Shown here: positions 1 to 21,027 of the stretch, piece after piece
How positions within the stretch are numbered: position 1 is the stretch's first letter
Layout: every line of letters starts with the position of its first letter
Origin: a virus
Virus record (IMG/VR): IMGVR_UViG_3300025870_000074
Coordinates: 1-23,541 of that record
Strand: one strand, 5' to 3'
DNA length: 23,541 bases
Translations under genes and position numbers: made by a program
The notes under the pieces: generated by a model
Seen by the model: the letters and a program-made list of their open reading frames with translations, nothing else
Databases searched by the model: none
What the model was told of the DNA's origin: nothing

Positions 1-3000
1 TAATTTTACAAATACTGCATTACTTGTGCTTGGCAGTACACCAAGACTATAAGTTAATGTGCTATCCATAATATAGCTTTGGCTAAAGATTTGACCTTGT
101 CCGTCACTATCTCTAGTATAAACTTTAATATCTAAAGTATCAAGTATTTGTCCTGGTACAAGTTCTTCTGGACCTTTAGATGTTGTTGGTGTAACAAATC
201 CGTCACCGTCTACAACAATGTCTTCGGCATTTAAACCAGTGGCTGTTGAATATACTAAATCTCCGCCGTTAATTTGTGTATCATAACTTGTTGGGTCTAG
301 ACCTATTGATCCATCACTTGACGATTTTCTTACAACAAATACATCTCCGTCTAATAGACTTATACCCAAATCTTGTACCAAAATTGTATCTGTTATGCCG
401 TCACCTATAATGCTATTTGTAATTGCATTAACATTTGTAGCTGATGTTCCAGGAATTTCATCTGTCCCTGCTACAAAATCAGGTGCGTCAATTCTCACAC
501 CATTTTTATATAAATTGTAAACAACGTTATTTTCTAAAGGAGCATTTAATTGTACTGCAATTGTTGATCCGTCTGCTGTAAACACTTCATCTTCAAAAGT
601 ATTTTCAAATACGTCCCAATTATCAGTATACCAGCCTTGTGTATCCCAACCTGATGGCCCGGAAAAATCAAAACTACGTATTTCTACTCCCCCATAATCA
701 ATTCCGTCTAATAACTGCGACAACTCTTTACCAAACATATTTTGTCCTGGCTGATATGCAAATTTAATTCTATCTTCAGCACTTAATAAACTTATAGGCT
801 TTTTATATTTGACTTGAATTGTAGCATTCAATGCAGGCGGTTTAGTAAATGTAATTCTACCCTTTTCCCTATTATATGTTTTAGTTTTATCTTCAATATT
901 AGTAAAGGTATATTTACTACGTAACTGTAGTGTATTGTCTATGTAAACTTCAACCTTCTTTATATCAAGATCCATAGGCCAGCCTAGATCATATCTTACT
1001 CTAGCTCCTGTACCTGTAAATGTTTCTGTTTCGTCAAGTGTATCAAAAGTATAAGATCCAGCATTTCTATCAAACTTCATTGCTACTTTAGTTGATCTTA
1101 CTAATCCGCCGCCTAATACTGCTGTTACTTTTGCAGGAGTACTGTTGTCAATCTGTGAGCCTTCAATTACGACAGTGGGCGCACTTGTATATCCGCTACC
1201 AGGTTCAGTAACTTCAATATGTGTTATTTTTCCGTAGCCAAGATATGCTTTTGCTTCGGCTCCTGTTCCTCCGCCGCCTTGTATTTTAACAATTGGTTCA
1301 AATGTCCAGCCACTGCCTCCGTCGCCAATTTTAATTTCAACAATTTGTTGTCCAATATTATTCTTCCAATTTTGGCGTGGATTAATATCTGTATCAAGAT
1401 TTTGTTCAACGATAACACCATCTTGTATTCTTGCAACACTTGATTCAATACGCTTTGTTTCAGTGCTATATGCCGGACTTAAATCAAAATCTGTTGTTAA
1501 CGAACTAGTATTATCAAGTACATCGTAATTACTTACAAATTCTCTTAGTTTAGTTTTATATGGTTTAAATTCTTCTACAAAATCTTGATAACTTTGTAAG
1601 TTATCGTTGTTAAACGTTATGTCATTTTGATTAAGTGTTCCTTTAATATGTTTGGCTTTTACAAAACTAGTTTTAAACAACCAATCTGCATTAGATTGTT
1701 CAGCCAATACATATCTTATTGTTGACATAAACAACTGGTTATATTCAACTTTTAAGCTACCTATAAAAATATTATCTCTAATAGCTTCTAAAATATTTCT
1801 TATTTCTGTAGAGGGATTAATATCATAAAAAGTATTATCAAATCGTCTATTGTCAAATCCAACAGAGTTTAGATTATAGTTATACACATTTTCTTTAAAC
1901 TGTATTGTACCGTTTTGTCTACCTATAGTTTCATAATTAACCGTATAGTCTTCTGTATCTTCATTGGCAACTTTTCTTAATAATAACCAACCGCCTGATC
2001 CAACATTATTAATTTTAACAACATCATTAATGTTTACTTCTAATGGAAATAGTTGATACGATCCTTCAATGCTAGTTGTAATTGGAGTAAATTGATTAAA
2101 TCCGTCTGCATACCAATCAGTATACTCCCAATAAGCTGTTGTATCATAACTTTGCAGAGCTTTTCTATACCATGTATTAGTTGCGTTATTAAAAGAATAC
2201 AGTGCCCACTTGCCATTAATTTCAATATCTGAAGTTACTAGCACAGTAAATGGTCTAACATTAATTGTTGTTTGATCATTATATTCAGATCCATCATCAA
2301 TTACTTGTGCTTCAGTAACTTGTCCTAAATTATTAATTGTAAGATCAATAACTGCATCTTTGCCTGTGCCAGTAATTGTAACTTTTGGTGCAGACTTATA
2401 TCCACGACCTGGATTATCTATTCTAACTCTTGCAACTCTACCGTTGACAACAATTGGTGTTAATTGTGCATCAAGTATTTTATTCGTACTAATAAACTCT
2501 AATTCGTCTATGCTATCAACACTTATATCCCATAGCTGTGAAATAGTTGTAGGTATGTCATCCTTCTTTAACAAGTTTGATAGGTTATATTCGTCAGTAA
2601 TTAAGTTTTGTTTTAACACTAAATTGATTCGTTCAATAGTTTGTTTTAACGCTTCTATTCTGTTAACAAACATACTTTGACGCGGTCTTGATTGTATACC
2701 GTATCGCATACTTAATGGAATATTAGGATCTGGAATTGTTCTTTCTGCAATATCAAAACCAATTAAACTGTCAAACCATTTACGTTCTAAATCTTGATCC
2801 GGAACACTATCAGGTGAGCCGTCAGCAAACAACTTATATTGATTGTGATAGTTTTGAGTAGTCTTATTAGAAGTATGATATTTAATTTGCAGTACACTAT
2901 CAGTACCGTTGATTAAATCATCACAATTATTAAGAACAAATTTATCTTTTCCTAAGAAACTTATAAATTTATATCCCTGGGTTCTAGGATTAGCAATCAA

Positions 3001-6000
3001 CTCAGCAATACCAATAGTATTAATATTTCTGCCAACTGGAATAGTTCTTTTATTAGTGACCCAAAAGTAGTATAATCTACCAAATGTTTTACTTGTTTCG
3101 TCATATACAATTTTTGACGAAAATCTAGTATTACCATATAGTGAAGTACCACTTACACCATTAGTGTACCCTTTCGGAGTACCAGATAACTGGTCCCAAG
3201 TGTCTGGTAAGTATGCTGATTCGACCCATTCACAAATAAGTATTGTTGCACCAGGTGTTAGCTTATTCCAGTTATTTTTTTGGAAGGTAGTTGTATCCTG
3301 ATAAGGATTAACAAATTTAGCTTTACTCAAATCCCACCAAACTTTTCCAACAGGTTTGTTTGTCCAGGCTATAGCTGGATCAACAAGTGGATCGCTTGTT
3401 AATCCTGTATTATACATAGCAGGATCTGTAGGTAATTTATATGATATTTCTTGATCTGCTGGACCAGCAATTTTACCTTGTATAGGATCAATATAGTCTA
3501 TATAAGAAACAATTCTATTTGAACGCTTATTATATATAAATGCGCCTGCAAATTGTTCAATATTTACCGGCGTACTACCTTGACTTATTACATTCCAAGA
3601 TTTTGTATTAGGCGGTTTTCTATAATCGATTAATATTCCTCGATGATCACGTCCGTCAACATACTGCTGTGGAACACCAATATATGCATGATTGCCTACT
3701 GAATATACATTTTCTCCAAACATAGTTTGGGTTAGTGGATATACAAATTGTTCGCCATATACTAATGTTTTGTTAACATTTTCGTAAACATAAACTACAC
3801 CTTTATCTAGTTTTGTGTTTCTAAAACTAGTAAAGTTTTTATCAAACGTTGTTACAGTGTCTTCTGTTGCGGAATATACCGTAAAATCAAACGTTGTTGG
3901 AATTTTTTGATCACCATTTAAACTTGAAACAAGTAAATCGTCTTGTCCAAAATCTATACTATATCCAAACTTTTCACTTTCTTCGTTATTAGGCGGAGTA
4001 AGAGTTTGTGTTAATTCAAATACGCCAGCATCGTTTTGTGTCCAAACATACACTTCGCCTTGATTAATTTTAGCATTGTCATTTAACGGAGAGCTAATTG
4101 CTATTTGTGTTCCGGATGGACTTAGTGACACTGCCTTTGCCCAAGCCTCATCATTAAACACAATTCCGTTATTTTCAATGTTTGTATTTGGTGCTGAAAT
4201 AACTTGAGAAACTACATACTTGTTATCAACTTCTCTATAAACAATTACTCTAGCATCTGTAGTACTATCTTGTCCATTTATTTTTGCCGTTACCACTAAT
4301 ACATTTGAATCGTCGCTTACGTCAAAATTTTCACTAAACTCTAATACTTCTTCTTGTGGATTAAATGTTTCTTCACCATAAAAATTGTTTGCCGTAATAT
4401 TTGGCAGATAACCCAAATAATCAATTTTAGTACTTACTGATATCCAAGAGTTATTTGTATTTGAAGGATTATTTGCTCCAATATCAATATTAGTTACTGC
4501 TTTCCACAAATTGCTATTATAAGAAACAACATTACCCGCTTTGTAAGAATATGTATTATCAAATTCTCCCATAAACTCAGCATCTTTTCCGTGGCGCCAG
4601 CTAATTTTGTTCCAGTATATAGAATTTAATACATCATTCATTGTTTCTGGTACATCTTTTATTGCAATATAATAGTCGTCTTTATAAAGAATAATATCAC
4701 CTTTACTGTATACTTGCCTTCTATAAACTCCAGCAAAGGATTCTTGCGGTGAAACTCCGTGTCTAAATATTTCAATTGACCCAGGATTGCCGCCTTGACT
4801 TTTACTACCTATTAACAACGTGTAATAATTGCCTGATTGGACTAGTCTTACTTTGTTACCAAATTGTTTATTGTTTTCTCTATGTTCGGATACGAATAGG
4901 TCTTGAAATCTATATCCTCCGTTATTCAATCTTCTATAAATTGCAACAGCGCCTTCGTTTGTTAAACTGTTAGTGGTTCCTTGATCCAACGCAGGAATAT
5001 TATAAACTTGTGTATAATCCTTGTTTAAGCTATAAGGAGGATTTGCTGCTCGTGCAATTCCTGGTTCTAATATTTCAGTAAAGAATGCATATTCTTCATC
5101 AATAATTTCAGGATTGGCAACTATATCAAAATTACTAGTATGTTCAAATACTAGTAATTTTCCAACTAAACTAGTTTGTAATACAATATTATTGTTTACA
5201 TCATCTATTGTAGCAACAACACGGTCTGAATCTGCTTGTCCTCGAAGAATTGTATTTGCTTTTCTTCTAATATTATATTTGCCAATATTAGACTGTTCAC
5301 TAAAATCTCCAGTTAATACTTTTACATATACTCGAATGTTGTTAAAGTTACGCTGTACAAAAACAACTTGTGCAGTACTTGTACTAATGGTTGTCAAAGC
5401 TAACCCGCCTTGTCCGTCTGCAGGCACTTGCACATCTTCAATTATATCACCGACTTGCGGTTGGAAGGCAAACCCATTAAAATCAAACTCACTAAGGGTC
5501 ATATCAATATAACCATCCCATATATCAATAATGGTATGCTGTTTATTTAAAATATCGTAAGATAGTCCTGCGCTTTCAACATCGATTACCCTGTTGTCAA
5601 GTTGATATAGATCAAAGTTGGGGGTTGCTCCAATAGTAAGACTATCAGAATATTGTTTACCAACTCTTACTATCCATTTATTACTAGGCTGATCTGCTTC
5701 AACACCGTCTTGTGCATCTGCTGCTGACGGATCACCTCTATACGATAAGTGGCTTAAAAAGCTCACTCTATTTTTATTCGTTACATATACACCAATATCA
5801 CCCACTGTAGCTTGTACATTATAATATAAATTAGTGTCACGTACAGAATCTTGTTTCTTAACATCAGCATACACTAATCCTCTACCCACATCATAATATC
5901 GAGAGTTATTGTTATATGCCGGAGTTGCAATTTTCCAGTAGCCTGCAACTGATGATGATGTAGAATATGTGTCTTCTTCAGTATAAAATCCTACAAAGTC

Positions 6001-9000
6001 TGTATCATTAATATATAATTCGCCACTAATATCAAAAATACCATTTGAATTTTTAAGGTATATTACTGCGCTATCAGATTTAAATGCAACGTAATCTACT
6101 TCGGCACTACCTGTGTCTGTAGTTATTCTTTGTCCAACTGTAGGTAATGTCACAAAAGTATCAACATACATAATATGATCAACTTTTTCTAAAATAGTAT
6201 GTTCTGCTGTAATAAATGCAGCATTAAGTTCTAGTATTTCTCCGTCAAAGGGAATATAATTATCTATTGTAGGATATGTGAAACTACGTTGATTCCAAAA
6301 TAGACTAAGTTTATCGCCTATTGCAGTACCTAAGTACATGTCTTTCGGAGCACGTATTAACATATGATCTATATTAGGATAATTTGGTAATCCGGGATTA
6401 CCTGCAACTAGTAAATTTAGTGTAGTACTATCAGCATCAGCAGCATTTGCTAAATTAGTGTAAGAATCAAATGTTGAAAACTGTTGGGCGGCAATTTGTG
6501 GTAAAATTTCTCTATTAGCTTTCCATAAACTTTCTCTATATCGAACAATATCATTTTTAACATATGTTGCATCTGGTTGATAATCAAATGTTAATTCTCC
6601 ATCTCCATTAGTTTTATATGCTAACTTAGTTTTAACATTACTGGCTTTTGGAATACCAACTGCCAAGTATTCTCCGTCTGGTGAAACATCAATACTTTTA
6701 CCAAAGTCGCTATTAGTTGGTGTGAACATTTGCGTTTCGTCAATAGTTATTTTTTGTTCAAAATTTAAATTTGCTACATCTCTTGATCTTTTATAAACAG
6801 ATATTTCTCCGTTGCCGGCGCCCGGTGCTGAGATAAACAAATTATTATTATTTTTAGTTACAGCAATACTATCAGTAAATCCTTGATCAGTACTATCATA
6901 ATCTGCAGGATTTACTAAAGTTTCTTGCATACTATAAACTGGATTATTTTGTAGTACTGCCCAATCATCATCGTACTTGTCAACCCACACTTTTTGATTT
7001 TTAACTATATCTTGTCCAATTTCTTCGCTAATCTCTGCAACTGAAGCAACCCTGCTGTCACTAAGATTAACTATAAGATAAGGGACTTCTTCATCAGTAA
7101 ATGGTGTAATATCGTTGTCAAGTGGGGCTTCGACTACAATTTTGTTAAAGCTTCTTTCTCTAATTCTGTATAATCCCAGTAATCCTTGTTTGCCAGCTGC
7201 CTTAAATCCAATATAATTATCTACCTCGTAAATATCGTCTATCCATTTATCAGTAGTAACTTCTAAAAATATAAAATTAGCTGCTGGTGTCTTATTAGTA
7301 ATCGTAATTACTTTAGTTAACTCTGTTATATGTACGTTCTTTGAGCTTAGTTTCGCAACTCCCCAGGAGTCAGTAGCTGTGTTTGTAATCCATATTGTTT
7401 GACCTAATCCAATTTGATTTATATTTACGTTATATAATGTAGTAACATCTCCTGCAACAAAATCAACATCTTCTTCGCTTACATAACCAGCTGTTTTAAC
7501 AAATTCTTCATCTAATACCTTAGTTGGAAATGGTTCGCTTACATAATCTGCAGGTTTACTATACACTTCTCCTGGCAATATCCTATATATATTGTTTAGG
7601 TTACTGCTAGGCAATGTGTTAACAAGTTCAAATGCCTGTGGAGAGTCTTGCATTTTTTTATCATCGAGTTGGAATTCAATTTGTTGAATATCTTCAATAG
7701 CGCCAAATCTACCAGACTGTATTGCCCATTCTTCGTATAATTCTAATGTATCTGTTGTATCACCTAATGCACTAAACAGTTTAGTAAACACATTCATTGT
7801 GCCTTTGTCTGCTATTGCACCTCTATAAAATTTATACTGACTTACATCGTCATTAATAATATTGGCAAGATATTGGCGCTTTTGATAGCCAATTAAATGC
7901 TGAGCCATTCGTTGTTGTTCGCTATCAAAATTATCAGTATCTAAATCATAAAAATCTGCAAATTGGTTGATTTTATAATCAAAGTTTGGTATTAATTCTG
8001 ACTCTGGTTTTTCATTTAATCTATACCAAAAGTTAGAATTAAATAATTCAGTACCAATAACATTTCTTAGTGCTACGTAGTAGTACTGTTTGTATTTTAC
8101 AAGATCTCCAATTTTATAATCTTTCCATTGTTCCCAGTCACCATAAGTTGCATCATCATAAACAAATCCAGGAATGTTTAGTCCGCCGTTCCAGTTATCT
8201 GATCTATATCCGTTAACACGTATTCTTTCTTGTCTATAACCAGTACTTGGATTATATATTAAATCGTTGAATATTGTTTTATTATCAAGCAATACAACAT
8301 GTTCTTTTTGTACTACCGGTAATGACACATGATATAACCCGTCATCAGTTCCTTCTATCGAAACACCAAATGAGTTTTCGTCTCTTATTAAACTACTAAA
8401 GGATGAATCTAAAAAGTCCCCAGATGCTTTGAGTAAACTGTACCCATAAAACTCATCTGCTAGACTATCAATTATACCATAATCTAATTTGACTCGTAAC
8501 TGATTAGCTGATGGACTTATTGCTATTAATGCACCAGATGCCCAACCTTGCGTGGTCCAATACATAAACTCTTTAGCCGACTGCTTCCAATCTTCAACAA
8601 CATTAGCTTCGTTATCAAACTTATTAAATTCAAATCCTAAGTCTAATTGTCTTTCTGCGTATCCTAATAAAAAGTCAACAGTTTCTTGTACTGTATCAAA
8701 TTTTGTTCCGTATGGTAACGTTGAAACTTCAGTTCTAAAATTCTTTTTAAATTTTGCTGTTCTGCCGCCAGTAGTTGGTAATTTTGGAAGTTTTACTGTA
8801 TTATCATCAAATAGTTTTTGGCCTGCTTCACCGGCAGTAGACTTAAAATCATTTGTAGCTTTAAAGAAACTATTGCCGGTGGATATTATCTCGCCAACAA
8901 AATATTGAGTGTTATTGGCGTAAAGTGAAGCTTTTTCGCTTTTTCCACCTACGGTAACTTCTACAAAGGCGGCGCCGCTAACTGTTTTGTAATATTCAAA

Positions 9001-12000
9001 ATACGGTCGTTGCAAACTATATCCGCTGAGTACATACCCGTTTGTAGCTTTTTCTATTAATACACCACTGTATGTTAACAATGTCTTTGGACTACTAGTA
9101 TTTAAGAATACTTTGTAATTTTCTTGTGGAACAAATATGCCGTCACGGGCAAGGGATTGTGTTGGTGATCTACTATCTAATATTAAATTAAAATTTTCTT
9201 TGCTTGTAAATCCTGAAATTTTAATACCAATTTGATTTGTTAAATTTTGCAAATTAGTTCTATAGTCATCATAAACTGTTAACACATCACTAGCAACTAA
9301 ATTATAAATGTAGTTTACAAAGCCAGATGTCATAACTCGTGAATCCGAGTTAGTAGTATTAGGCAATACAAGATCTTTTAAAACTAACTGTTTGTTAGTT
9401 TGTGTATATGTCCATTGTCCGCTTAGATTTCTTTTTATTCTCGATACATCAAACCCAAGACCCATTGTTTTAGCTGGTTGGTTTATTAACATTGCTATCA
9501 TAACAGCAAAGGGATATTCTGAACTATTACGCCATGCATTTTCAATAGGTGCAAAATCACCAAATTTAAAATTTCTTGTAGCACTATTTAATATAAAATC
9601 ATTTGCGTATCCTGATACTAACGGCGATAATAATTTTCCTTGTGAATCAACTGGCAAATGTGTGGTTATATCTGGTCTAGCATAATTTAGATCAAATGTA
9701 ACATTAGAAGGATTTGCTATTTTTCCTTCTTCAATATTTTTCCAAAGTATTAAGTTATCACTTGTATACGGAGCAGGACCGTATACAGTATTCCACCAAG
9801 ACGGTTTTATACTAAATCCTTGTATCTCCCAAGGATGACTGTGCGGACGGTCTGTATCATATGCATGTCGATATATGCCTCTCCAAAATCCAGGATTTGT
9901 ATTTCCGTTTGGAGATAGTGTATCTGTATAATTAAAAGTCCAATCGTTGCCCCTATTATAAAACGTGTTATTAGTATAATTTTGATTATTTAGATTTGAT
10001 TGAATCCATTGTTGAAAATCTGGTAGCAATGTTCTATCTATTTCTTGTTTTGTAAAATTAGACGTTTTAAATTCGCCACCAATAAACTGATCTATATCTA
10101 GTCTCAAATTAGAATAGTCAACTTTAATATTGTTGAAAATACGTTTTTCTAATTCAATTAATAAATTATCTCTAAAATCTTTATATGCCTTTATACGACT
10201 ACCATCGTGTCCTATAATAAATGCAACTCCGTAATCGTATTCAGTTACTTCAGCATCATCATTGCCGGCTATTACTGCTGTATCATTTGTATTAGGAATA
10301 TAAAATAATCTATTTAATCCTTCAAATGTTATAGTCTTAGCAGTAGAATCTGTAGATGCTTCTTTTGCATCTGACCTAGACGTATATAACGGATATGTCC
10401 AGCCTACAAGTCCTTGCTCAATACCTAAAATAGACTTAGTACTAGTTTCAATTTGTCCGTAAACTTTAAATGGTCCGGTAGAATTATTAACAGGTACTGT
10501 GGGCTGTACTGTGTCGTCAATTGTTAACATTGGATTATACTTAGGATATAACCCTAACTTAGTAGGTGTTGGTGAAATAAATGACCCATCAGATGACTCA
10601 TATTCATAAATTTCAATAATGTCATTTTCTAACTGTCCTGCATCAATAGTTATGTAGCCAGCATTATCAAAGTTATAATCTTTGTTGTATGTTATTTGAG
10701 TACCATTAAGATAGACTAATAAACCTTTTGGAGTTAAATCTTTTAGTGTAAAAGTTTCAGTTAACGGGTAGTCTAGTGTTCTACGATCTAATACTGCATA
10801 TTCAATCCTATTAGAAGAACCATAAGGTATCATATCAGAGAAATAAAACGGTTGTGATTTTATTTTATCTTTGTTTACTTCAGCCAATATTAAATCTACA
10901 TGAGTTTTTGTTGCTCCGTCATACCCTAGATTTGTAGCGGTATCAATAAAGGTTCTTTTAAAACGTGCATATTCATTTTTAGCATATTTTAATGCTTTGA
11001 CAATATTATATTCTTTGTTTGTAATATGATACAAAGGAAGATTAATTGGACCACTATGCTTTACAAAGCGTTTGCCAAATTGATCTAACTCTCCAAGGTC
11101 ACGTAGATTATTTGCACCTAAGAACTTACCAGTAAAGTTTGGTAAATCTTCTAACATACTATCTACATGATCAATTACTTCGCCTAAAGTAAATTGCACA
11201 ATGTCATCATTTAATGGATTGCGTTCCAAGTTGTAGGGAAATTCATAATATCCGTTTTGATTTTTTATTGTTTTAGTATCAGTTTTTACCTTAATAACAT
11301 CGCCGACATTTAAATCGTTAACGAATTGTATTTGTACAACAGGATCTGTTTTATTGATATTATAATCTGTAGTTAATAATTGTATTTTATTGTTTACAAA
11401 TACTACTACTTTTAAATCAGTAATTTTAAATGGATTGTCATATACATCAATATTAAAATTATTTTTTTGCGTATCAGTTGCTGCATATTCTCTAACAACA
11501 AATTGTTTTGATGTTTGAGGAGTATTACTAAAACCGTTAGCATAACTAAAAGTTGTTAAATTTTTATACTTCTTTAAATACCCAGAGCTGATTGCACTAG
11601 TTTGCACTGTGTTTGCTACTTCGTATTCAAATGTATCACTTAATAAATTAAAACTAAACAATATATCGCCGGAATTGTCAATATTTCTATAAGATAATGG
11701 AAATCCTAATTCAGTATCAGATGTTCCTTCACCTTCTAAGTATGAAAATAGTTTAGTTCCTTGAAAATTTGTTTGCGGGTAATATGTTGTAGACGAAAAA
11801 CTGTTACCATTAACATCGCATACTTCAAAAAGTGGCTGCTGGTTTGTTTTTGTTTTTTCTTGTGCCTTTACCCATGTATTATTGTGATAGTGATAGCTTT
11901 TACCTGCATTTACTTGGCCTTGTGTAACTAAAATAGTTTCAAGATCTAGCGGTGTAGTGTCTGCTGTTTCAATTAACGAAACCTGTCTATTGTTTCCAAT

Positions 12001-13671
12001 TCTAACAAATTTTACTTGAAATATTTTTCCATTAACAAGCACATCTGTATCAGCAGTAAATAAAATTCTCATTCCGTCAGCTAAATCAACGCCGTCTATA
12101 TTGTATCCAAGTTGACCTTCTATCATACTAAATGCATCTGTAGTATACGTATCAATTAAATCTACATCTTGTTTAGCATATGCACCAAAATTGTTTAATT
12201 TTAGTCCGGCTTCAAATTCAATAATAGGACGAGAGGCTCTTTTAGATTCATCTAAATTTTCTGCTAACTTGTTAAAACTAAAACTTTTTAAAATTACATC
12301 TCTATGATGCCAACAATTATATCTGCTCCACGCATTTCTATCTGGACTAGCTCTATTAATGACAATATAATCTTTTTGTGTAGCATAATTGCCTGCATTT
12401 GAAAAAGGCAAGGTATCAAATTCTTCGCTATCAAAAGGTACAACTTTGTTTTCACTATACACAGCTGGAATAATTAGGTCTTGATCTTTAATTAATTTAA
12501 TTTTGTCGCCGACGCCTTCTACATACCAGTTATGTTCTTTGTATATAATATCATCAGTATCACCTTGGAATCTAATTTGCATTCCATTTGATAACTCAAC
12601 ACCGTTAGCACTTTTATAGTATTTTTTACCTAGAATTTCATCAGTAACATTTAAAAAGCTATTTTCTTCAATATCATAAATTTTAATTAATCCGCTAGTA
12701 TCAATTTCATTTTTACTAATATAATATAATCTTTCAGGCGAATTTGCAGGAATAGTAAACTCTATAGTTCCTTTTTCAATATAAGCAACTGCTACTTCTT
12801 CACCGTCTTCTCCTAACTTACGAATTCCGTCTGGATACAGTGTGCTAACATTATCGTCAGCTTCAAATGTTACACTACCGCTAGACGGTAATACAATATA
12901 TTCGCCTTGGTCATATTCGTTACCATATAATACTGCATCAAAAAGGCCTTGGCCTCTAATTCCTTCATTGCCAGCAGTTAGTATTGAGCTACCAGGAGTA
13001 AAGGTTCTTGAGATCGAAAATGCAATGGGATGCCCAGGTGTATCAATTTCAAAGCGATATTTTTGTCCACGATATAATTTAAGTGTTGGATTTCTTGTTA
13101 GTCCGTCGTTAAAAACGTAAGCAATATTATCGCCCTGATCTTCTGTTGTAATTGTATAGGTACTAACAACTTCTCTACTTTGACCTCTTACTGGGATACT
13201 AAGAGGGCCGTTTGGCATCCAGTAATACTCACGGAAATTTACAAATTTGTCCCAATCAATATTTGGATTCCATCCGTAAGTTTCTTGTGTGTTTAATCTA
13301 CTATGATTTTGTGTGTTGGCGCCGAAAACACCAAGTTGGCCAATATAATCATTGTAATCTTTATAAAATTCTACATTGTCGTAATCATCTTTAATAACCG
13401 CTGCTGGTTCTAATTGATAATTTTTCCTTTCACTGCTAACATCGTCTACATAATTGTCAGTAGGCTTAAATGCTTTAGCAGTTGTTCTACCAAAATAGCC
13501 ATTTATTTTTTCTGCAACGCCTGGTTGTATTAACTGATCTAGTGTTGCCTGTAAAAACTTTTTGTTAGCTGCTGTTCTAAAGAAAGAAGGTAAAAAATCA
13601 CTTGCCGTAATGTTTTTATCTTGTCCCGGCACCGGAAGTGGAGACGCATTTTGATCATCATTGTATGCCAT
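1..13671 (-). CDS. Giant multidomain virion structural protein (partial, C-terminus off left edge)
   Basis: The frame starts at an ATG that shares one base with the gp6 stop (TAATG) and stays open for 4557 codons to base 1, so the C-terminus is missing. Order downstream of gp5-gp25-gp6 is that of T4 gp7, so a baseplate wedge or tail-periphery role is inferred; I cannot show homology to gp7. Modules, by residue: an N-terminal region (about 10-190) with the motif NFREYYWMPNGP; a cupredoxin-like domain (198-335); paired L-x-x-GM-x-I repeats (358, 528); W-rich motif WSRYNCWHH (448-456); beta modules at 752-797, 984-1024 and 4238-4291; PSWWNTVYGPAPYT (from 1290); HLIGYQKRQYL and QYKFYRG (1925-1951); four CBM5/12-like modules; six propeller-like motifs (2265-3337); VGKVWWDLSKAKFV (3441-3454) followed by an EWVES motif; two G-x-G-Y pairs; and GPEELVPG (4500-4507). 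Such motifs are typical of very large structural proteins of marine T4-like phages as I remember them. No signal peptide or membrane segment was noticed. The reading frame is certain; the function is inferred from position. Confidence 0.9.
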   Translation of the reverse strand, partial: MAYNDDQNASPLPVPGQDKNITASDFLPSFFRTAANKKFLQATLDQLIQPGVAEKINGYFGRTTAKAFKPTDNYVDDVSSERKNYQLEPAAVIKDDYDNVEFYKDYNDYIGQLGVFGANTQNHSRLNTQETYGWNPNIDWDKFVNFREYYWMPNGPLSIPVRGQSREVVSTYTITTEDQGDNIAYVFNDGLTRNPTLKLYRGQKYRFEIDTPGHPIAFSISRTFTPGSSILTAGNEGIRGQGLFDAVLYGNEYDQGEYIVLPSSGSVTFEADDNVSTLYPDGIRKLGEDGEEVAVAYIEKGTIEFTIPANSPERLYYISKNEIDTSGLIKIYDIEENSFLNVTDEILGKKYYKSANGVELSNGMQIRFQGDTDDIIYKEHNWYVEGVGDKIKLIKDQDLIIPAVYSENKVVPFDSEEFDTLPFSNAGNYATQKDYIVINRASPDRNAWSRYNCWHHRDVILKSFSFNKLAENLDESKRASRPIIEFEAGLKLNNFGAYAKQDVDLIDTYTTDAFSMIEGQLGYNIDGVDLADGMRILFTADTDVLVNGKIFQVKFVRIGNNRQVSLIETADTTPLDLETILVTQGQVNAGKSYHYHNNTWVKAQEKTKTNQQPLFEVCDVNGNSFSSTTYYPQTNFQGTKLFSYLEGEGTSDTELGFPLSYRNIDNSGDILFSFNLLSDTFEYEVANTVQTSAISSGYLKKYKNLTTFSYANGFSNTPQTSKQFVVREYAATDTQKNNFNIDVYDNPFKITDLKVVVFVNNKIQLLTTDYNINKTDPVVQIQFVNDLNVGDVIKVKTDTKTIKNQNGYYEFPYNLERNPLNDDIVQFTLGEVIDHVDSMLEDLPNFTGKFLGANNLRDLGELDQFGKRFVKHSGPINLPLYHITNKEYNIVKALKYAKNEYARFKRTFIDTATNLGYDGATKTHVDLILAEVNKDKIKSQPFYFSDMIPYGSSNRIEYAVLDRRTLDYPLTETFTLKDLTPKGLLVYLNGTQITYNKDYNFDNAGYITIDAGQLENDIIEIYEYESSDGSFISPTPTKLGLYPKYNPMLTIDDTVQPTVPVNNSTGPFKVYGQIETSTKSILGIEQGLVGWTYPLYTSRSDAKEASTDSTAKTITFEGLNRLFYIPNTNDTAVIAGNDDAEVTEYDYGVAFIIGHDGSRIKAYKDFRDNLLIELEKRIFNNIKVDYSNLRLDIDQFIGGEFKTSNFTKQEIDRTLLPDFQQWIQSNLNNQNYTNNTFYNRGNDWTFNYTDTLSPNGNTNPGFWRGIYRHAYDTDRPHSHPWEIQGFSIKPSWWNTVYGPAPYTSDNLILWKNIEEGKIANPSNVTFDLNYARPDITTHLPVDSQGKLLSPLVSGYANDFILNSATRNFKFGDFAPIENAWRNSSEYPFAVMIAMLINQPAKTMGLGFDVSRIKRNLSGQWTYTQTNKQLVLKDLVLPNTTNSDSRVMTSGFVNYIYNLVASDVLTVYDDYRTNLQNLTNQIGIKISGFTSKENFNLILDSRSPTQSLARDGIFVPQENYKVFLNTSSPKTLLTYSGVLIEKATNGYVLSGYSLQRPYFEYYKTVSGAAFVEVTVGGKSEKASLYANNTQYFVGEIISTGNSFFKATNDFKSTAGEAGQKLFDDNTVKLPKLPTTGGRTAKFKKNFRTEVSTLPYGTKFDTVQETVDFLLGYAERQLDLGFEFNKFDNEANVVEDWKQSAKEFMYWTTQGWASGALIAISPSANQLRVKLDYGIIDSLADEFYGYSLLKASGDFLDSSFSSLIRDENSFGVSIEGTDDGLYHVSLPVVQKEHVVLLDNKTIFNDLIYNPSTGYRQERIRVNGYRSDNWNGGLNIPGFVYDDATYGDWEQWKDYKIGDLVKYKQYYYVALRNVIGTELFNSNFWYRLNEKPESELIPNFDYKINQFADFYDLDTDNFDSEQQRMAQHLIGYQKRQYLANIINDDVSQYKFYRGAIADKGTMNVFTKLFSALGDTTDTLELYEEWAIQSGRFGAIEDIQQIEFQLDDKKMQDSPQAFELVNTLPSSNLNNIYRILPGEVYSKPADYVSEPFPTKVLDEEFVKTAGYVSEEDVDFVAGDVTTLYNVNINQIGLGQTIWITNTATDSWGVAKLSSKNVHITELTKVITITNKTPAANFIFLEVTTDKWIDDIYEVDNYIGFKAAGKQGLLGLYRIRERSFNKIVVEAPLDNDITPFTDEEVPYLIVNLSDSRVASVAEISEEIGQDIVKNQKVWVDKYDDDWAVLQNNPVYSMQETLVNPADYDSTDQGFTDSIAVTKNNNNLFISAPGAGNGEISVYKRSRDVANLNFEQKITIDETQMFTPTNSDFGKSIDVSPDGEYLAVGIPKASNVKTKLAYKTNGDGELTFDYQPDATYVKNDIVRYRESLWKANREILPQIAAQQFSTFDSYTNLANAADADSTTLNLLVAGNPGLPNYPNIDHMLIRAPKDMYLGTAIGDKLSLFWNQRSFTYPTIDNYIPFDGEILELNAAFITAEHTILEKVDHIMYVDTFVTLPTVGQRITTDTGSAEVDYVAFKSDSAVIYLKNSNGIFDISGELYINDTDFVGFYTEEDTYSTSSSVAGYWKIATPAYNNNSRYYDVGRGLVYADVKKQDSVRDTNLYYNVQATVGDIGVYVTNKNRVSFLSHLSYRGDPSAADAQDGVEADQPSNKWIVRVGKQYSDSLTIGATPNFDLYQLDNRVIDVESAGLSYDILNKQHTIIDIWDGYIDMTLSEFDFNGFAFQPQVGDIIEDVQVPADGQGGLALTTISTSTAQVVFVQRNFNNIRVYVKVLTGDFSEQSNIGKYNIRRKANTILRGQADSDRVVATIDDVNNNIVLQTSLVGKLLVFEHTSNFDIVANPEIIDEEYAFFTEILEPGIARAANPPYSLNKDYTQVYNIPALDQGTTNSLTNEGAVAIYRRLNNGGYRFQDLFVSEHRENNKQFGNKVRLVQSGNYYTLLIGSKSQGGNPGSIEIFRHGVSPQESFAGVYRRQVYSKGDIILYKDDYYIAIKDVPETMNDVLNSIYWNKISWRHGKDAEFMGEFDNTYSYKAGNVVSYNSNLWKAVTNIDIGANNPSNTNNSWISVSTKIDYLGYLPNITANNFYGEETFNPQEEVLEFSENFDVSDDSNVLVVTAKINGQDSTTDARVIVYREVDNKYVVSQVISAPNTNIENNGIVFNDEAWAKAVSLSPSGTQIAISSPLNDNAKINQGEVYVWTQNDAGVFELTQTLTPPNNEESEKFGYSIDFGQDDLLVSSLNGDQKIPTTFDFTVYSATEDTVTTFDKNFTSFRNTKLDKGVVYVYENVNKTLVYGEQFVYPLTQTMFGENVYSVGNHAYIGVPQQYVDGRDHRGILIDYRKPPNTKSWNVISQGSTPVNIEQFAGAFIYNKRSNRIVSYIDYIDPIQGKIAGPADQEISYKLPTDPAMYNTGLTSDPLVDPAIAWTNKPVGKVWWDLSKAKFVNPYQDTTTFQKNNWNKLTPGATILICEWVESAYLPDTWDQLSGTPKGYTNGVSGTSLYGNTRFSSKIVYDETSKTFGRLYYFWVTNKRTIPVGRNINTIGIAELIANPRTQGYKFISFLGKDKFVLNNCDDLINGTDSVLQIKYHTSNKTTQNYHNQYKLFADGSPDSVPDQDLERKWFDSLIGFDIAERTIPDPNIPLSMRYGIQSRPRQSMFVNRIEALKQTIERINLVLKQNLITDEYNLSNLLKKDDIPTTISQLWDISVDSIDELEFISTNKILDAQLTPIVVNGRVARVRIDNPGRGYKSAPKVTITGTGKDAVIDLTINNLGQVTEAQVIDDGSEYNDQTTINVRPFTVLVTSDIEINGKWALYSFNNATNTWYRKALQSYDTTAYWEYTDWYADGFNQFTPITTSIEGSYQLFPLEVNINDVVKINNVGSGGWLLLRKVANEDTEDYTVNYETIGRQNGTIQFKENVYNYNLNSVGFDNRRFDNTFYDINPSTEIRNILEAIRDNIFIGSLKVEYNQLFMSTIRYVLAEQSNADWLFKTSFVKAKHIKGTLNQNDITFNNDNLQSYQDFVEEFKPYKTKLREFVSNYDVLDNTSSLTTDFDLSPAYSTETKRIESSVARIQDGVIVEQNLDTDINPRQNWKNNIGQQIVEIKIGDGGSGWTFEPIVKIQGGGGTGAEAKAYLGYGKITHIEVTEPGSGYTSAPTVVIEGSQIDNSTPAKVTAVLGGGLVRSTKVAMKFDRNAGSYTFDTLDETETFTGTGARVRYDLGWPMDLDIKKVEVYIDNTLQLRSKYTFTNIEDKTKTYNREKGRITFTKPPALNATIQVKYKKPISLLSAEDRIKFAYQPGQNMFGKELSQLLDGIDYGGVEIRSFDFSGPSGWDTQGWYTDNWDVFENTFEDEVFTADGSTIAVQLNAPLENNVVYNLYKNGVRIDAPDFVAGTDEIPGTSATNVNAITNSIIGDGITDTILVQDLGISLLDGDVFVVRKSSSDGSIGLDPTSYDTQINGGDLVYSTATGLNAEDIVVDGDGFVTPTTSKGPEELVPGQILDTLDIKVYTRDSDGQGQIFSQSYIMDSTLTYSLGVLPSTSNAVFVKL
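799..960 (-). repeat. Beta module B3 (residues 4238-4291)
   Basis: This copy contains KKVEVYIDNTLQLRSKYTF and later GRITFTKPP and IQVKYKK. It is the most divergent copy and lies more than 3200 residues from module B2. Confidence 0.45.
1156..1320 (-). repeat. G-x-G-Y/W repeat pair C2 (residues 4118-4172)
   Basis: GGSGWTFEPIVKIQGG is followed 39 residues later (Trp 4122 to Tyr 4161) by GSGYTSAPTVVIEG, with ITHIEVTEP leading into the second copy. It has the same period and the same layout as pair C1. Confidence 0.65.
2257..2409 (-). repeat. G-x-G-Y repeat pair C1 (residues 3755-3805)
   Basis: GRGYKSAPKVTITG is followed 39 residues later (Tyr 3758 to Tyr 3797) by GSEYNDQTTINV. The linker VTEAQVIDD leads into the second copy. 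This 'G.GY.SAP.V.I.G' element recurs in phage structural proteins. Confidence 0.6.
4444..4545 (-). repeat. CBM5/12-like aromatic module 4 (residues 3043-3076)
   Basis: YKAGNVVSYNSNLWKAV, then GANNPSNTNNSW. This is the best match of the four to the CBM5/12 consensus, including the G-x-x-P spacer before the final Trp. Confidence 0.6.
4612..4710 (-). repeat. CBM5/12-like aromatic module 3 (residues 2988-3020)
   Basis: YSKGDIILYKDDYYIAIKDV, closing with IYWNKI. The full core 'Y..GD.I.Y....Y.A......W' is present. It is separated from module 4 by only about 20 residues, so the two form a tandem pair. Confidence 0.55.
6460..6564 (-). repeat. CBM5/12-like aromatic module 2 (residues 2370-2404)
   Basis: YVKNDIVRYRESLWKANREI has the 'Y...D.V.Y....W.A' core. 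The closing aromatic is less clear than in the other copies. The module directly follows the first pair of propeller-like motifs. Confidence 0.45.
6637..6879 (-). repeat. FG-GAP/beta-propeller-like motifs 1-2 (residues 2265-2345)
   Basis: Motif 1 is FTDSIAV followed by NLFISAPGAGNGEISVYK. Motif 2 is FGKSIDVSPDGEYLAVGIPK. Both follow 'FG.si.vs.dG..laigaP......G.v.vy', the repeat of integrin-type and related beta-propellers. They are spaced 58 residues apart, a normal blade length. Confidence 0.55.
8017..8136 (-). repeat. CBM5/12-like aromatic module 1 (residues 1846-1885)
   Basis: The run WEQWKDYKIGDLVKYKQYYY, then VALRN and FWYRL, matches the carbohydrate-binding module family 5/12 layout: 'W...Y..GD.V.y....Y.A', a spacer, then a closing Trp. 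Sugar binding is inferred from the family only. Confidence 0.5.
10600..10722 (-). repeat. Beta module B2 (residues 984-1024)
   Basis: This copy contains LLVYLNGTQITYNKDYNF and then a strand ending NDIIEIYEY. It matches the same 'vYlNG...DY...I......D.I.i' pattern as modules B1 and B3, and is the clearest of the three. Confidence 0.55.
11281..11418 (-). repeat. Beta module B1 (residues 752-797)
   Basis: This stretch reads as a hydrophobic strand with V-V-V-F-V-N-N, then a D-Y turn, then a strand ending in VGDVIKVKT. The pattern 'vYvNg....DY......i.F...l..gD.I.V' is common in phage tail and fibre proteins. It is copy 1 of three that I can see in the giant protein. Confidence 0.5.
12043..12090 (-). 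repeat. Internal repeat A2 (residues 528-543)
   Basis: VDLADGMRILFTADTD, the second copy of repeat A1, 170 residues further on. The shared core is V-x-L-x-x-GM-x-I-x-F-x-x-DTD. Confidence 0.6.
12553..12600 (-). repeat. Internal repeat A1 (residues 358-373)
   Basis: VELSNGMQIRFQGDTD in the giant protein. It resembles the copy at residues 528-543 (repeat A2) at 9 of 16 positions, and both are followed by a short hydrophobic beta-like stretch and then a basic/aromatic segment. It probably marks a duplicated beta-rich domain. Confidence 0.6.
12667..13080 (-). other. Cupredoxin-like domain in giant protein (residues about 198-335)
   Basis: The segment opens with YRGQKYRFEIDTPGHPIAFS, which follows the cupredoxin pattern in which a 'G..Y.F' strand leads to a conserved His-Pro. 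It closes with EFTIPANSPERLYYISKNE followed by SGLIKI, matching the usual 'F.VP..AP..LYY.C..H..M.G.I' end of the fold. The final Cys, His and Met ligands are absent here (Ser, Asn and neighbouring residues instead), so the domain would be structural and would not bind copper. Similar degenerate cupredoxin-like segments occur in marine phage structural proteins as I recall. The assignment is by motif only. Confidence 0.5.
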
Positions 13672-16600
13672 TAGTAACTATATCCTCCGCCGCTACTACT
13701 ACCGCTCGAGCTACTACTTGAGCTACTACTTGAGCTACTACTTGAGCTACTACTAATTGAATTTGTTGATACAATTCCTGTTGTTACTGCGTTCGGAACA
13801 GAACTAATTACATTTCCTGCTGCTTGTAGTTGTGTTGCTGTAATTTCATCTATAGTTTCAACATCACTTACTGTTGCTGCACTTGTAAACACTTCGTCTG
13901 CTTCACTTTTTATTTCAAAAAGACTACCAAATGTTTGTGTAGTTTGGCGAGGAACTATTAAAAAACTAACTAATCTTGGGGATAGTTTGTTCATAATGTA
14001 CGCACTAAGTTCTTGGAAATAAAATGTTTCTCCAAAGTCCCAATTTTCAATATCAAAAAATCTGTTTATTTCGTCAATAATATCTGCTTTTAATTCATTG
14101 TCATTAACAACTAAGTTTTTATTTCTAACTATTTTAAATTTAACTTGTAAATCTGCTGGAGCTTTTGACCCAAACAATATTTTATAGCGTACAGGATGAT
14201 AAATGATGTCATCACTTATACTTTTAACTTTAGAAATTTCATTGCCATAACTTCTAAGTAACTGGTCATTACTTGGCGGTCTAGGTTCAACTGGTAATTG
14301 TCCTGAAATATATTGTTTTAGTTCTCTATCATATGTTTTAGTTAATAGATAAGTGTCAATAATATTACTTGAACTTGGATCAATTCTATAATTACCATCT
14401 GCAACATGTACATAATGAAATTTTAAATTTGAACGGCCGAAGAATGCTTTGTAGTCGGTATTGATTTGAGTATTGTTTAAAGTTTTATTTAATTTTCTAA
14501 ATATTTGCTCATCCTGTAAATAGAATACTTGTCCTTCTAAACGGGTACTATACGGAGCTATTGCCGACTCGTTCTGGACAATGATTATTTCATTATTTAA
14601 ATTATTAAAAAATTTAAAATCTTGTACACCGTCTGATGTAGTATATATTTTTTGAAATACAATTCTTTCAGTGATTGGAACCGATGTGTCAGATTCTCCG
14701 ACTATTTGTTCAAAAATATCCGGGTCATCAAATACACCGTCATCATCTAAGTCAATAAATTGTATTTGTATTTTACGACTATCTAAATATCCTTCGGCAT
14801 CTTTATACTGATCCGTAATTGTCCAAGAAAAGTCTCTTGTAAACGGAATTAATTCTCCAGGCTTACGGTTGATATTTAAAATATCAACTTTATCACGAAT
14901 AACCTTTCCTGTAGAAGGATCATAAATTTTATCTGCTCCATCAAAAAAGAAACGTATTTCATTTTCGCTTTCCATTACATAACGCATTTGTCTATATGTA
15001 ATAGTATACTTTTGTCCATCTGTTTTAAAATACATCATCCAACTAGCATCAAGATTATCGCCAGAAGTATCGCCAGCTTTACCTATTGCAAAATCATTAA
15101 TTGTGTTAACATCTTGTGCTAATACAATTTTCCATTGCCTATCATAATTGTCATATCGTAAAGCAAAGTTTCTAAATTCAAATGCCTGATCAATAAGTTG
15201 TGTCTTAATATCGTTAATTAATGCTAGAGAATATTTTGGTATAATTTGTTCAATTAATGAACCTGTTGGAATAAAGTCATTTAGCGTAATACTTGCTCTG
15301 CTAGATTCATCATCTCCTGTTTCTGTCGATAACGATGTTCCGTCACCTTCTACTGATAACACCTTAACCCACTTGTACATAGTTTTTCCAAAATGATCAG
15401 TACCGGAATCGTCCATTAATGTACCATCTGCCATAAAATGTTTACCCGAAGGTGGTACAAATTTTATTACTGTTCCTGGTTCTATTAGTCTAAGACTATT
15501 AGCAGTAAATTCTCCTACAGGATATGGCGTTGAGCTTGTGTCTTGAAAAATACCAGTGTAATTGTTAGTTTGTGAAGTTTTAGCATTCCAAGAAGCATTT
15601 AAGTCACTAACAATAATTTTTGGATACTTTGACAAGTAAAAGTTTTTACTATTTGAATACTTTATTATTTCTTCAATAATATTATAAATTGCACCTTCAA
15701 TATCTGTTTGGGTTGCAAAGGTAAAAGATTGTTTTTCTTGATATTCTTCTTTGTAAATAATACCATCATCTACAAATAAACTAGTATTTGAGTATTTTCC
15801 ACTTGCATCTTTTAAGTCAAAATACCTACTTATGCCACTAGATATTCTGTTAGTACTTTTAGTTTTAATAATTTCCTGACTTACTGCAAGTGGACCAATG
15901 TTGTAATCTTCGCCTGTAATTAGTCTATCCTGTGTATAGTATGTTGCAGGAGCATTTGCTTTAATTTCTTCGTTTGTTTCTGAGGAAGTACCGTTACTAA
16001 CTGTATAGTTTAATTTTAATCCTATTGTTAATTTTTCTTTAGTGCCTTTTTTAGTTTGATAAGGTATTTCTATTTGAATTGTGCCCATCGCAGCAGGTGT
16101 TATTACAGCCCTTAGTCCTGAGCTAGTTCTATAATAAACTTTAAAGTCTCCTGATGGTAGGTTTCCAAAAACTCCGTCACTAAAGACTAAATTGATTCTA
16201 TCGCCAATCCTAGTAGTTACTGCAAAAACATCTTTTGTTTTATTGAATAAACTGTTATATACAACATTATTACCTTCAACGGAGTCTATTTTAGTCCATG
16301 CTTGGTTTTCAAATCCTGATGAATTTAAACCAAATAACCAAACATCATTATTATTAATATTTTCTGCATCGATAGCAATTGATTGATTAGGTGTTGGATT
16401 GCTAACATTAAATGCTCCGGAGTCTAGTCTTCCTTGAACAAACGACATAAAGAAACCTGTATTAGCACTGCCTGCGCCTTGGCCGTCATCTCTAAATAGC
16501 ATTGACGGACTATTGCCAGGAAGTGGAGCTTCTTCAATAATATTTTCTCCTACAATATCACTACTTACAACTTCAAAGCGTGTGTTTATCCCTTCAACTC

Positions 16601-17210
16601 TTTTAGAAAACGGGTATATTGCAGGAGATGTTGATGTTCCATTAAATTTATATTTTTGCGTTACTACTCCGGCAATAGTTTCAGTTTTTAGTGGATTTCC
16701 AATTGCATTTTGTAATGGTAGTGCAGAATTTAAGATTTTCAAAAATTGTTCAAAGTAATTTGAGTTAGTTTGATCATTCCACTTAACAGTAATACCTGCT
16801 AGATTTAATCTATTACTATCTAGTACATTTTCTGTGGTTTTAATTGTGTCAATTTTTAATAATCCGCTTGCTGCTTGATTACGTTTTGGATTATATGAAA
16901 GCATACGTGCAAGACGTAATACGCTTTCTCTACGTTCTGCTGTTTCAAGAAAGTTTTCGCGAGCATTTAAATCAATGCGGAATGATAAGTTCTGCCCAAG
17001 GAAAGCAATCATATCAATTAGCGCAAGATATTCACTTGATTCAATGTAGTCGTTAAAATCTTCGGGATAGTTTTGACGCAGGTAATTAATCATTGTGCGA
17101 CGAAGATTATCAAAGTCATAACTTTGGAAATCAGCGTTACGGTATGATTGATAAATTCTTTTCCAGTCCTCAGCTACTAGTAGCCTTGACTGCCTATCAG
17201 TTGCAGACAT
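13671..17210 (-). CDS. gp6: Baseplate wedge protein gp6, long form
   Basis: In T4, gp6 joins neighbouring baseplate wedges into the ring that rearranges on contraction. Residues 1-120 hold the strongest signature: AEDWKRIYQSY, YLRQNYPEDFNDYIESSEYL, FLGQNLSFRIDLNARENF and the RRESVL segment, all as I recall from gp6 of T4-like cyanophages. The C-terminal part (about 1010-1130), with INRFFDIENWDFGETFYF and FGSLFEI, resembles the baseplate J/gp6 C-terminal region. At 1179 residues it is far longer than T4 gp6 (660). An EF-hand-like acidic loop lies at 820-831 and a poly-Ser/Gly tail ends the protein. The ATG at 17210 has a good Shine-Dalgarno (AAGGAA, 6 bases away) and a late-promoter-like octamer upstream. 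The stop overlaps the next start by one base. Confidence 0.92.
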   Translation of the reverse strand: MSATDRQSRLLVAEDWKRIYQSYRNADFQSYDFDNLRRTMINYLRQNYPEDFNDYIESSEYLALIDMIAFLGQNLSFRIDLNARENFLETAERRESVLRLARMLSYNPKRNQAASGLLKIDTIKTTENVLDSNRLNLAGITVKWNDQTNSNYFEQFLKILNSALPLQNAIGNPLKTETIAGVVTQKYKFNGTSTSPAIYPFSKRVEGINTRFEVVSSDIVGENIIEEAPLPGNSPSMLFRDDGQGAGSANTGFFMSFVQGRLDSGAFNVSNPTPNQSIAIDAENINNNDVWLFGLNSSGFENQAWTKIDSVEGNNVVYNSLFNKTKDVFAVTTRIGDRINLVFSDGVFGNLPSGDFKVYYRTSSGLRAVITPAAMGTIQIEIPYQTKKGTKEKLTIGLKLNYTVSNGTSSETNEEIKANAPATYYTQDRLITGEDYNIGPLAVSQEIIKTKSTNRISSGISRYFDLKDASGKYSNTSLFVDDGIIYKEEYQEKQSFTFATQTDIEGAIYNIIEEIIKYSNSKNFYLSKYPKIIVSDLNASWNAKTSQTNNYTGIFQDTSSTPYPVGEFTANSLRLIEPGTVIKFVPPSGKHFMADGTLMDDSGTDHFGKTMYKWVKVLSVEGDGTSLSTETGDDESSRASITLNDFIPTGSLIEQIIPKYSLALINDIKTQLIDQAFEFRNFALRYDNYDRQWKIVLAQDVNTINDFAIGKAGDTSGDNLDASWMMYFKTDGQKYTITYRQMRYVMESENEIRFFFDGADKIYDPSTGKVIRDKVDILNINRKPGELIPFTRDFSWTITDQYKDAEGYLDSRKIQIQFIDLDDDGVFDDPDIFEQIVGESDTSVPITERIVFQKIYTTSDGVQDFKFFNNLNNEIIIVQNESAIAPYSTRLEGQVFYLQDEQIFRKLNKTLNNTQINTDYKAFFGRSNLKFHYVHVADGNYRIDPSSSNIIDTYLLTKTYDRELKQYISGQLPVEPRPPSNDQLLRSYGNEISKVKSISDDIIYHPVRYKILFGSKAPADLQVKFKIVRNKNLVVNDNELKADIIDEINRFFDIENWDFGETFYFQELSAYIMNKLSPRLVSFLIVPRQTTQTFGSLFEIKSEADEVFTSAATVSDVETIDEITATQLQAAGNVISSVPNAVTTGIVSTNSISSSSSSSSSSSSSSSSSGSSSGGGYSY
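13683..13688 (-). promoter_or_regulatory. Shine-Dalgarno of giant gene inside gp6 C-terminus
   Basis: On the minus strand this reads GGAGGA, formed by Gly codons near the gp6 C-terminus. It lies 11 bases before the ATG at 13671, slightly long but usable. Together with the TAATG overlap it points to translation coupled to gp6. Confidence 0.55.
13707..13754 (-). repeat. Four tandem 12-bp units encoding the gp6 poly-Ser tail
   Basis: The plus strand shows tgagctactact three times, preceded by one copy with a single change (cgagctactact). On the coding strand the 48 bases are read as Ser codons (AGT AGT AGC TC-x), so length change by whole units keeps the frame. More Ser codons flank it on both sides. 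Confidence 0.95.
14718..14753 (-). other. EF-hand-like acidic loop in gp6 (residues 820-831)
   Basis: DLDDDGVFDDPD, followed by IFEQI, places Asp at loop positions 1, 3, 5, 9 and 12 and Gly at 6, the classic calcium-loop pattern. Calcium binding is an inference from the pattern. No flanking helices are obvious, so it may be an isolated loop as in dockerin or other extracellular calcium motifs. Confidence 0.5.
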
Positions 17211-17268: not shown

Positions 17269-17709
17269 TTAGCTTAATAATCCATTCTCTTTATCAAACT
17301 TAAAACGTAACTGATCCTGTATTTTATACGGTAAAAACGTAAGTGTTATGTCAACTTGAATACCTTGATCAAATGTATCTACTAGAATTTTATCTATCTT
17401 TGTTCTTGGGTCATAGTTTACTATTCGTGTTACATCGTTAACTACTGCTTCTTGCACTTCTCTAGTAAATGGTTCAAATAAAATATCCCATATAATTGTT
17501 CCAAATGTTGGGTCACTTAACTTTTCTGTTTGACGAATATGAAAATGATTTATTAAATCTTGTTTAATTAAATCGTAGTCGTATAAACCAAAGTTTTTTG
17601 GATTATTAGAAGTAGTAGAAAATCCTCGGTAAGTTCTACCGTCTACAGACTTTTTTATGTTAGGTTTAACTACTACACGTTTATATAAGTTTTTTTCTAA
17701 TTGGCTCAT
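17269..17709 (-). CDS. gp25: Baseplate wedge protein gp25 (GPW/gp25 family)
   Basis: This is a 146-residue protein of the gp25/TssE-like family, which forms the wedge core with gp6 and gp53 and contacts the sheath base. T4 gp25 is 132 residues, so the size fits. The family region runs from about residue 45 to the end: a DLINHF segment, FGTIIWDILFEPF (the Glu-Pro of the family's E-P-R signature) and VNYDPRTKI (the Arg), then a beta hairpin near DITLTFLP. Residues 1-40 are a basic extension (LYKRVVVKPNIKK). The gene starts 15 bases after the gp5 stop, with AGGG 10 bases before the ATG. The location between gp5 and gp6 supports the call. Confidence 0.92.
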   Translation of the reverse strand: MSQLEKNLYKRVVVKPNIKKSVDGRTYRGFSTTSNNPKNFGLYDYDLIKQDLINHFHIRQTEKLSDPTFGTIIWDILFEPFTREVQEAVVNDVTRIVNYDPRTKIDKILVDTFDQGIQVDITLTFLPYKIQDQLRFKFDKENGLLS

Positions 17710-21008: not shown

Positions 21009-21013
21009 TAATA

Positions 21014-21019
21014 TTCCTT
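21014..21019 (-). promoter_or_regulatory. Shine-Dalgarno deciding the start of the 262-residue gene
   Basis: Minus-strand AAGGAA with 5 bases to the ATG at 21008, in the 19-base gap after the hub stop. It favours this start over the upstream ATG at 21086. Confidence 0.75.
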
Positions 21020-21027
21020 TTTTATAC

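Follow-up and report, generated by a model that had tools for sequence, protein, structure and literature searches.

Gene organization of the window

The stretch of DNA analysed here (the window) is the whole 23,541-base record of a virus. A giant gene on the minus strand, which begins at 13671 and runs to base 1, directly follows the gene of a gp6-like baseplate wedge protein (13671..17210, minus strand; 1,179 aa; phrog_10646, 8e-283; phrog_219, 1.4e-26), and the gene of a gp25-like baseplate wedge protein lies further upstream (17269..17709, minus strand; 146 aa; phrog_43, 3.7e-11; PF04965, 5.8e-5, below the cut-off). The poly-serine C-terminus of the gp6-like protein is a long serine run (SSSS...GSSSGGGYSY) encoded at 13674-13763 on the minus strand. 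A gp5/VgrG-like hub spike of 831 aa is encoded at 17725..20220 (minus strand; phrog_13211, 5e-53). This protein contains a VgrG3-like C-terminal domain (PF21277, 1.1e-27) and a weak GH46 match below the cut-off; the Pfam scan listed no lysozyme family in it. The remaining part of the window holds a 288-aa ORF (20220-21086), for which no PHROG match was found at E ≤ 0.01, and an 824-aa protein (21028-23502, minus strand) that matches phrog_11190, a virion structural protein family.

The open frame is a single gene

The giant frame comprises 4,557 codons from its ATG without a stop and is open at its 3´ side. Because the window is the whole record, it is the end of the contig that truncates the gene. 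By our own arithmetic, the chance of 4,557 stop-free codons is approximately 1e-153 at ~33% G+C. In the sequence TAATG, the ATG of the giant gene overlaps the stop codon of its gp6-like neighbour, and a GGAGG lies upstream of this start. The ORF list and the stop-free translation thus agree with an earlier note on this DNA, which had described a single frame of more than 4557 codons after gp6. The same note suggested that the stop be sought beyond base 1, and near-identical contigs provide it. With the last 600 residues as the query, 69 matching stretches were obtained, 63 of which are relatives. Two contigs, L011 and L007, are 97% identical to the window protein across these residues, and in both the frame runs on for 598 codons past the window end and then stops. 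The record behind L007 (L148) has 94.0% protein identity across the entire visible gene. The 4,557 visible codons and the further 598 therefore give a full length of ~5,150 aa. The calculated mass is 513 kDa for the window part and 579 kDa with the L011 end added; a protein above 500 kDa at the T4 gp7 position, after the gp25- and gp6-like genes, is hence already contained in the visible part, as the earlier note had it. Downstream of the giant gene, L011 encodes a 200-aa ORF of phrog_11259 (no function), followed by three ORFs (684, 630 and 494 aa) with matches to families of tail, collar, fibre or other virion proteins, which are weaker for the 630-aa ORF.

The family is common in IMG/VR, with a relative encoded in at least 565 stretches among the 600 matches listed. 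A total of 140 loci were fetched and the records of 35 were searched; 18 of these 35 records, picked as apparently complete, were fetched whole. In all 18 complete homologues the giant is encoded by one uninterrupted gene of 5,091–5,624 aa. The genome search indicated longer frames in G029 (7,175 codons) and G007 (7,425 codons); these were rejected, as direct translation gave 5,136 and 5,093 codons, respectively, from stop to stop. The window gene was compared with four of the 18 complete homologues in blocks of 500 codons (the last of 57) that cover its visible part. In 40 of 40 blocks, the dN/dS ratio is 0.076–0.393; two of the four comparisons have a high dS (up to 1.7). The visible length of the gene is selected as protein, under purifying selection, and low dN/dS throughout identifies a maintained protein and not an assembly join. 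The truncation of the frame by the contig end might be taken to favour an assembly artefact that fused separate genes, a possibility raised in the earlier note. One uninterrupted gene was found, however, in each of the 18 fetched records and also in six cultured phages. With complete homologues uninterrupted and selection acting on the protein, the artefact is rejected as vanishingly improbable, and the long open frame is confirmed as a real single gene.

Relatives of the giant protein in jumbo phages

The visible protein (1..13671, minus strand; residues 1-4557 of ~5,150, with ~598 C-terminal residues beyond the contig end) matches phrog_10938, a virion structural protein family, with 1,028.7 bits over six stretches. 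The same family was matched in all 35 related records searched; its PHROG category is 'head and packaging'. Relatives of residues 1-1000 were found in 57 phage records, every one with less than 60% identity. The homologues are long proteins in Phosso (XYS97451.1; 4,555 aa), Atu_ph07 (gp180; 4,449 aa), PA5oct (gp355; 3,857 aa), SCTP-2 (3,807 aa), Vibrio 2.275.O (3,771 aa), CBB (CBB_236; 3,340 aa), RaK2 (ORF070w; 3,326 aa) and RAS14 (3,138 aa), and BLASTP segments of 23–40% identity lie in the same order in all eight, with one extra, out-of-order segment in Atu_ph07. The jumbo-phage records examined label the giants 'structural protein' or 'hypothetical protein'. CBB_236 was found in purified virions with 21 unique peptides and 7.72% coverage, according to the CBB paper (PMC5259590), and the record of the PA5oct homologue bears the note ESI-MS/MS.

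In Phosso, Atu_ph07, PA5oct, RaK2, CBB and RAS14, the giant gene lies directly 3´ of a gene annotated as or matching gp6; the slot after gp6 is therefore the same as that of the window giant. In SCTP-2, the giant does not adjoin gp6: a 3,096-aa ORF (8627-17917 of L006, Salicola phage SCTP-2) directly precedes it and the gp6 homologue is far off. The gene preceding the giant in Vibrio 2.275.O carries an annotation other than gp6. Table 3 of the CBB paper gives gp6, gp25 and gp53 homologues, and gp7 is absent from that table (PMC5259590). The gp23 of a 120-kb relative contig has 65–70% identity to jumbo-phage gp23 among the best 15 matches, and this likeness suggests that the window probably derives from a jumbo-type phage of the T4 superfamily.

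Domain organization of the giant protein

The jumbo-phage giants share homology with the window giant in N-terminal, central and C-terminal blocks. In contrast to them, the proteins of the window family are longer, with a cupredoxin-fold insert and an insertion of ~1,250 aa that bears FG-GAP repeats and CBM modules. The window giant is thus a new member of PHROG 10938 with a notable family-specific domain set. The features below are all encoded on the minus strand; the whole-length alignment on which several of them are based leaves out L166. Structure models cover residues 1-2115, for which 93 of 103 selected relatives were the input of model A and 47 of 55 that of model B. The fold matches include the BFVD proteins A0A6J5L0K2 and A0A6J5T0D1 (uncultured Caudovirales phage), to which residues 1-1060 are 45% and 26% identical, respectively; these two proteins are named by the domain keyword 'YHYH domain' only, without a stated role.

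An N-terminal segment conserved in the alignment and common to the jumbo homologues (residues 1-165; 13177..13671) precedes the cupredoxin-fold insert (residues 166-338; 12658..13176), which was identified in the AlphaFold model by a fold match to 2dv6 (VIA Z 10.0; 2.3 Å over 96 residues). The model with this insert has a pLDDT of 79.6 and a pTM of 0.70, with pLDDT below 50 at residues 224-272. The insert is gapped in all seven jumbo isolates aligned. Type-1 copper sites are formed by a Cys/His/Met loop. In the ligand columns of the insert, the copper ligands are not kept; the Cys/His/Met loop is not conserved and a His at position 214 occurs in only 57 of 94 rows, so an active copper protein was rejected. 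A literature search found no publication on a cupredoxin in a bacteriophage baseplate. A conserved β-rich block with the motifs N.WSR.N.W.H and RPIIEF, recognized in the alignment and the model, follows at residues 400-1049 (10525..12474); within it, residues 431-870 reach a pLDDT of at least 86 in 43 of 44 ten-residue blocks.

The central block conserved with jumbo phages in the alignment spans residues 1143-2060 (7492..10245). The model of residues 1061-2115 is moderate, with a pLDDT of 69.1 and a pTM of 0.50. Internal profiles place up to five CBM5/12-like modules in the whole protein, one of them weak. The weak module lies within the central block at residues 1584-1613 (8833..8922; internal profiles with E of 0.0026 and 0.009 in a one-sequence search), where the fold comparison gives a VIA Z of ~6 for model residues 519-571. 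Another module in this block (residues 1838-1889; 8005..8160), also detected by the internal profiles, matches the fold of a module from the baseplate of phage Milano (8fqc_P1) with a VIA Z of 8.2 and 1.2 Å over 45 residues. This match suggests that the modelled module may have a structural role as readily as one in glycan binding.

The window-family insertion occupies residues 2103-3359 (3595..7365) and includes FG-GAP repeats and three CBM5/12-like modules; its occupancy is 0.93–1.0 in the window family versus 0.18–0.49 in eight jumbo isolates. Two of the modules are located by internal profiles at residues 2363-2405 (6457..6585; E 3.9e-16) and 2986-3024 (4600..4716; E 4.1e-14). The third, a CBM5/12 module at residues 3032-3080 (4432..4578), scores 25.9 bits with PF02839 in the window, just below the cut-off of 26.2, and 31.5 bits in L148. 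A small β segment at residues 2493-2561 (5989..6195) weakly resembles T4 gp7 domain V (PF21427, E 0.037, below the cut-off); with an hhalign probability of 12–17, it was judged to be probably a common small β-barrel, and the assignment was rejected. FG-GAP repeats are matched above the cut-off by PF14312 at residues 3173-3305 (3757..4155). By eye, seven FG-type repeats start near residues 2265, 2321, 2935, 3113, 3176, 3233 and 3317, some of which are backed by profiles. The second block that the alignment finds conserved with jumbo phages follows at residues 3359-4091 (3353-4085 in L148 numbering; 1399..3597).

A candidate wedge-core segment and the giant gp7 proteins of cyanophages

Giant proteins in the gp7 slot are already on record in cyanophages and related large phages, as annotated cyanophage gp7 proteins have 4,156–5,195 aa: PSSM2_111 of P-SSM2 (5,195 aa) occupies a gp25-gp6-gp7-gp8 slot, and those of P-HM1 and S-SM2 have 4,446 and 4,156 aa. 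S-SSM7 (L174) and DSL-LC02 (L176) carry two large genes per genome that are labelled gp7 or wedge initiator, and a wedge-fibre connector gene lies between the two gp7-type genes of S-SSM7. The window giant is similar to the cyanophage proteins in its gp25-gp6-gp7 slot and in size, and it has a candidate counterpart of their KGT segment. The next gene differs: it is gp8 in P-SSM2, P-HM1 and S-SM2 and that of the 200-aa phrog_11259 protein in L011. BLASTP against cyanophage gp7 yielded a single segment of 68–117 residues in three of seven sequences, located away from the KGT site, and collinear homology with the cyanophage giants was not found by hhalign, whose segments were short and out of order.

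The slot of T4 gp7 (phrog_964; 1,032 aa) is also alike, but the protein is five times shorter than the window giant. The phrog_964 profile has no match in the window protein or in G029, G031, Phosso, Atu_ph07, PA5oct and RaK2, whereas T4 and P-SSM2 do match it. A PDB sequence search with the window protein returned nothing at E ≤ 1. The T4 gp7 chain is absent from the listed fold matches of the models of residues 1-2115, which is not taken as absence. The possible tie to T4 gp7 is indirect, through the KGT segment of the cyanophages. Their N-terminal segment aligns to residues 724-813 of T4 gp7 with a probability of 95–97, and phrog_964 matches P-SSM2 at its KGT segment (8e-5). The corresponding part of T4 gp7 packs with gp6 in the wedge core. 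In T4, gp6 and gp7 form a three-way helical bundle.

In the window giant, scans with the cyanophage gp7 core profile point to an FY..KGT..LF segment at residues 1925-1985 (7717..7899, minus strand) as a candidate gp7 wedge-core segment; the segment is near residue 200 in cyanophage gp7 and near ~1950 in the window giant. The site was first spotted by eye, and window scans were run afterwards to remove that choice. With an alignment of 18 window-family and eight jumbo proteins, residues 1925-1985 are the top of 46 scan windows, with scores of 33.6 and 31.9; the next window scores 18.1 and the reversed null does not exceed 18.1. The corresponding site is the best of 41 windows in a Phosso-led set of five (29.7 versus a null of 16.6) and the best of 30 windows in a RaK2-led set of three (21.4, barely above the null of 20.8); the three sets share members. 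The probabilities in these scans are modest (48, 24 and 3), and the T4 gp7 core profile picked other sites in all three scans. The segment is modelled as helices, mostly with pLDDT below 50. Pfam and PHROG scans of this region in 31 members found no wedge family and returned phrog_10938 in 31 of 31. We take the KGT segment to resemble P2 gpI; Tail_P2_I (PF09684) has no match at E ≤ 10 in nine records, and T4 and P-SSM2 are likewise without a match, which makes this result uninformative. As judged from the profile scans, the identification of the KGT segment as the counterpart of the cyanophage/T4 gp7 core is suggestive.

Discussion

We consider it likely that the window giant is the gp7-slot baseplate-wedge protein of a T4-superfamily, probably jumbo, phage, with ~5,150 aa and 579 kDa. 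In this arrangement, residues ~1925-1985 would be packed against gp6 at the core of the wedge. The outer wedge and the baseplate rim would be built by the remaining chain, which consists largely of β domains in the modelled parts. The outer part of the giant may structurally perform some of the work of the separate wedge proteins of T4. The family inserts (the cupredoxin without copper ligands, the CBM5/12-like modules and the FG-GAP repeats) would lie at the surface and serve either contact between subunits or adhesion to glycans.

Alternatively, the giant could belong to the fibres, whiskers or decorations of the virion and share no more than the gp7 slot, with the wedge role on another gene. 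The carbohydrate-binding-type modules and FG-GAP repeats, the 'head and packaging' category and the failure of the T4 gp7 profile to match directly are in keeping with such a protein, as are the separation of the giant from gp6 in SCTP-2 and the whisker-like structures that the CBB paper describes without assigned proteins (PMC5259590). We regard it as unlikely, in view of the gp6 adjacency in six other jumbo phages, the KGT segment and the presence of the giant in both RaK2 and CBB despite baseplate fibres that differ greatly according to the same paper (PMC5259590). A polyprotein, translated whole and then cut into several virion proteins, appears very unlikely: the length is kept in all 18 fetched relatives and no positive evidence of a cut was found. 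It is compatible with the low peptide coverage of CBB_236 (PMC5259590) and with the two such genes of S-SSM7 and DSL-LC02, since the occurrence of two gp7-type genes in some cyanophages implies that the function may tolerate division.

The earlier note also proposed that one chain might combine what T4 divides among gp7-gp12. The size and the slot of the giant favour this fusion, and no separate full-length match to phrog_438 or phrog_964 was found in Phosso, Atu_ph07, PA5oct and RaK2; the genome search for gp8 covered phrog_438, one of two gp8 families (the other being phrog_977). The Phosso giant matches the wedge families phrog_438, phrog_2885, phrog_708 and phrog_719 in parts other than the KGT site, as well as hub and fibre families; the wedge matches also speak for the wedge assignment favoured above. 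In contrast, the search of the window giant against 38,880 PHROG families, with T4 gp7, gp8, gp9, gp10, gp11 and gp12 all represented, returned phrog_10938 and phrog_460 alone at E ≤ 0.001, with no gp8, gp9, gp10, gp11 or gp12 family, and the sole match of the missing 598 aa is phrog_10330 (0.0017). The matches to phrog_438 (gp8 family) are interior segments in the giants of three of six clade records and span just positions 166-301 of 478. Moreover, the collar- and fibre-type ORFs are separate and downstream in L011, and a separate ORF of PA5oct bears the C-terminal part of gp10. The proposed combination in one chain is therefore not supported, and we judge it highly improbable. The interior matches and the missing full-length phrog_438 would fit, without showing, a takeover of outer-wedge roles by the giant.

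Under the favoured reading of the giant as a gp7-slot wedge protein, the placement of the candidate core suggests that much of the chain may consist of family-specific added domains. This candidate, located midway along the chain, provides a testable link among the baseplates of T4, cyanophages and jumbo phages. A bolder and rather unlikely proposal is that the wedge-core protein itself bears a host-facing adhesive surface, composed of an integrin-like FG-GAP propeller, chitin-binding-type modules and a copper-free cupredoxin. If this were true, receptor contact and baseplate triggering would be covalently one molecule in this abundant lineage.
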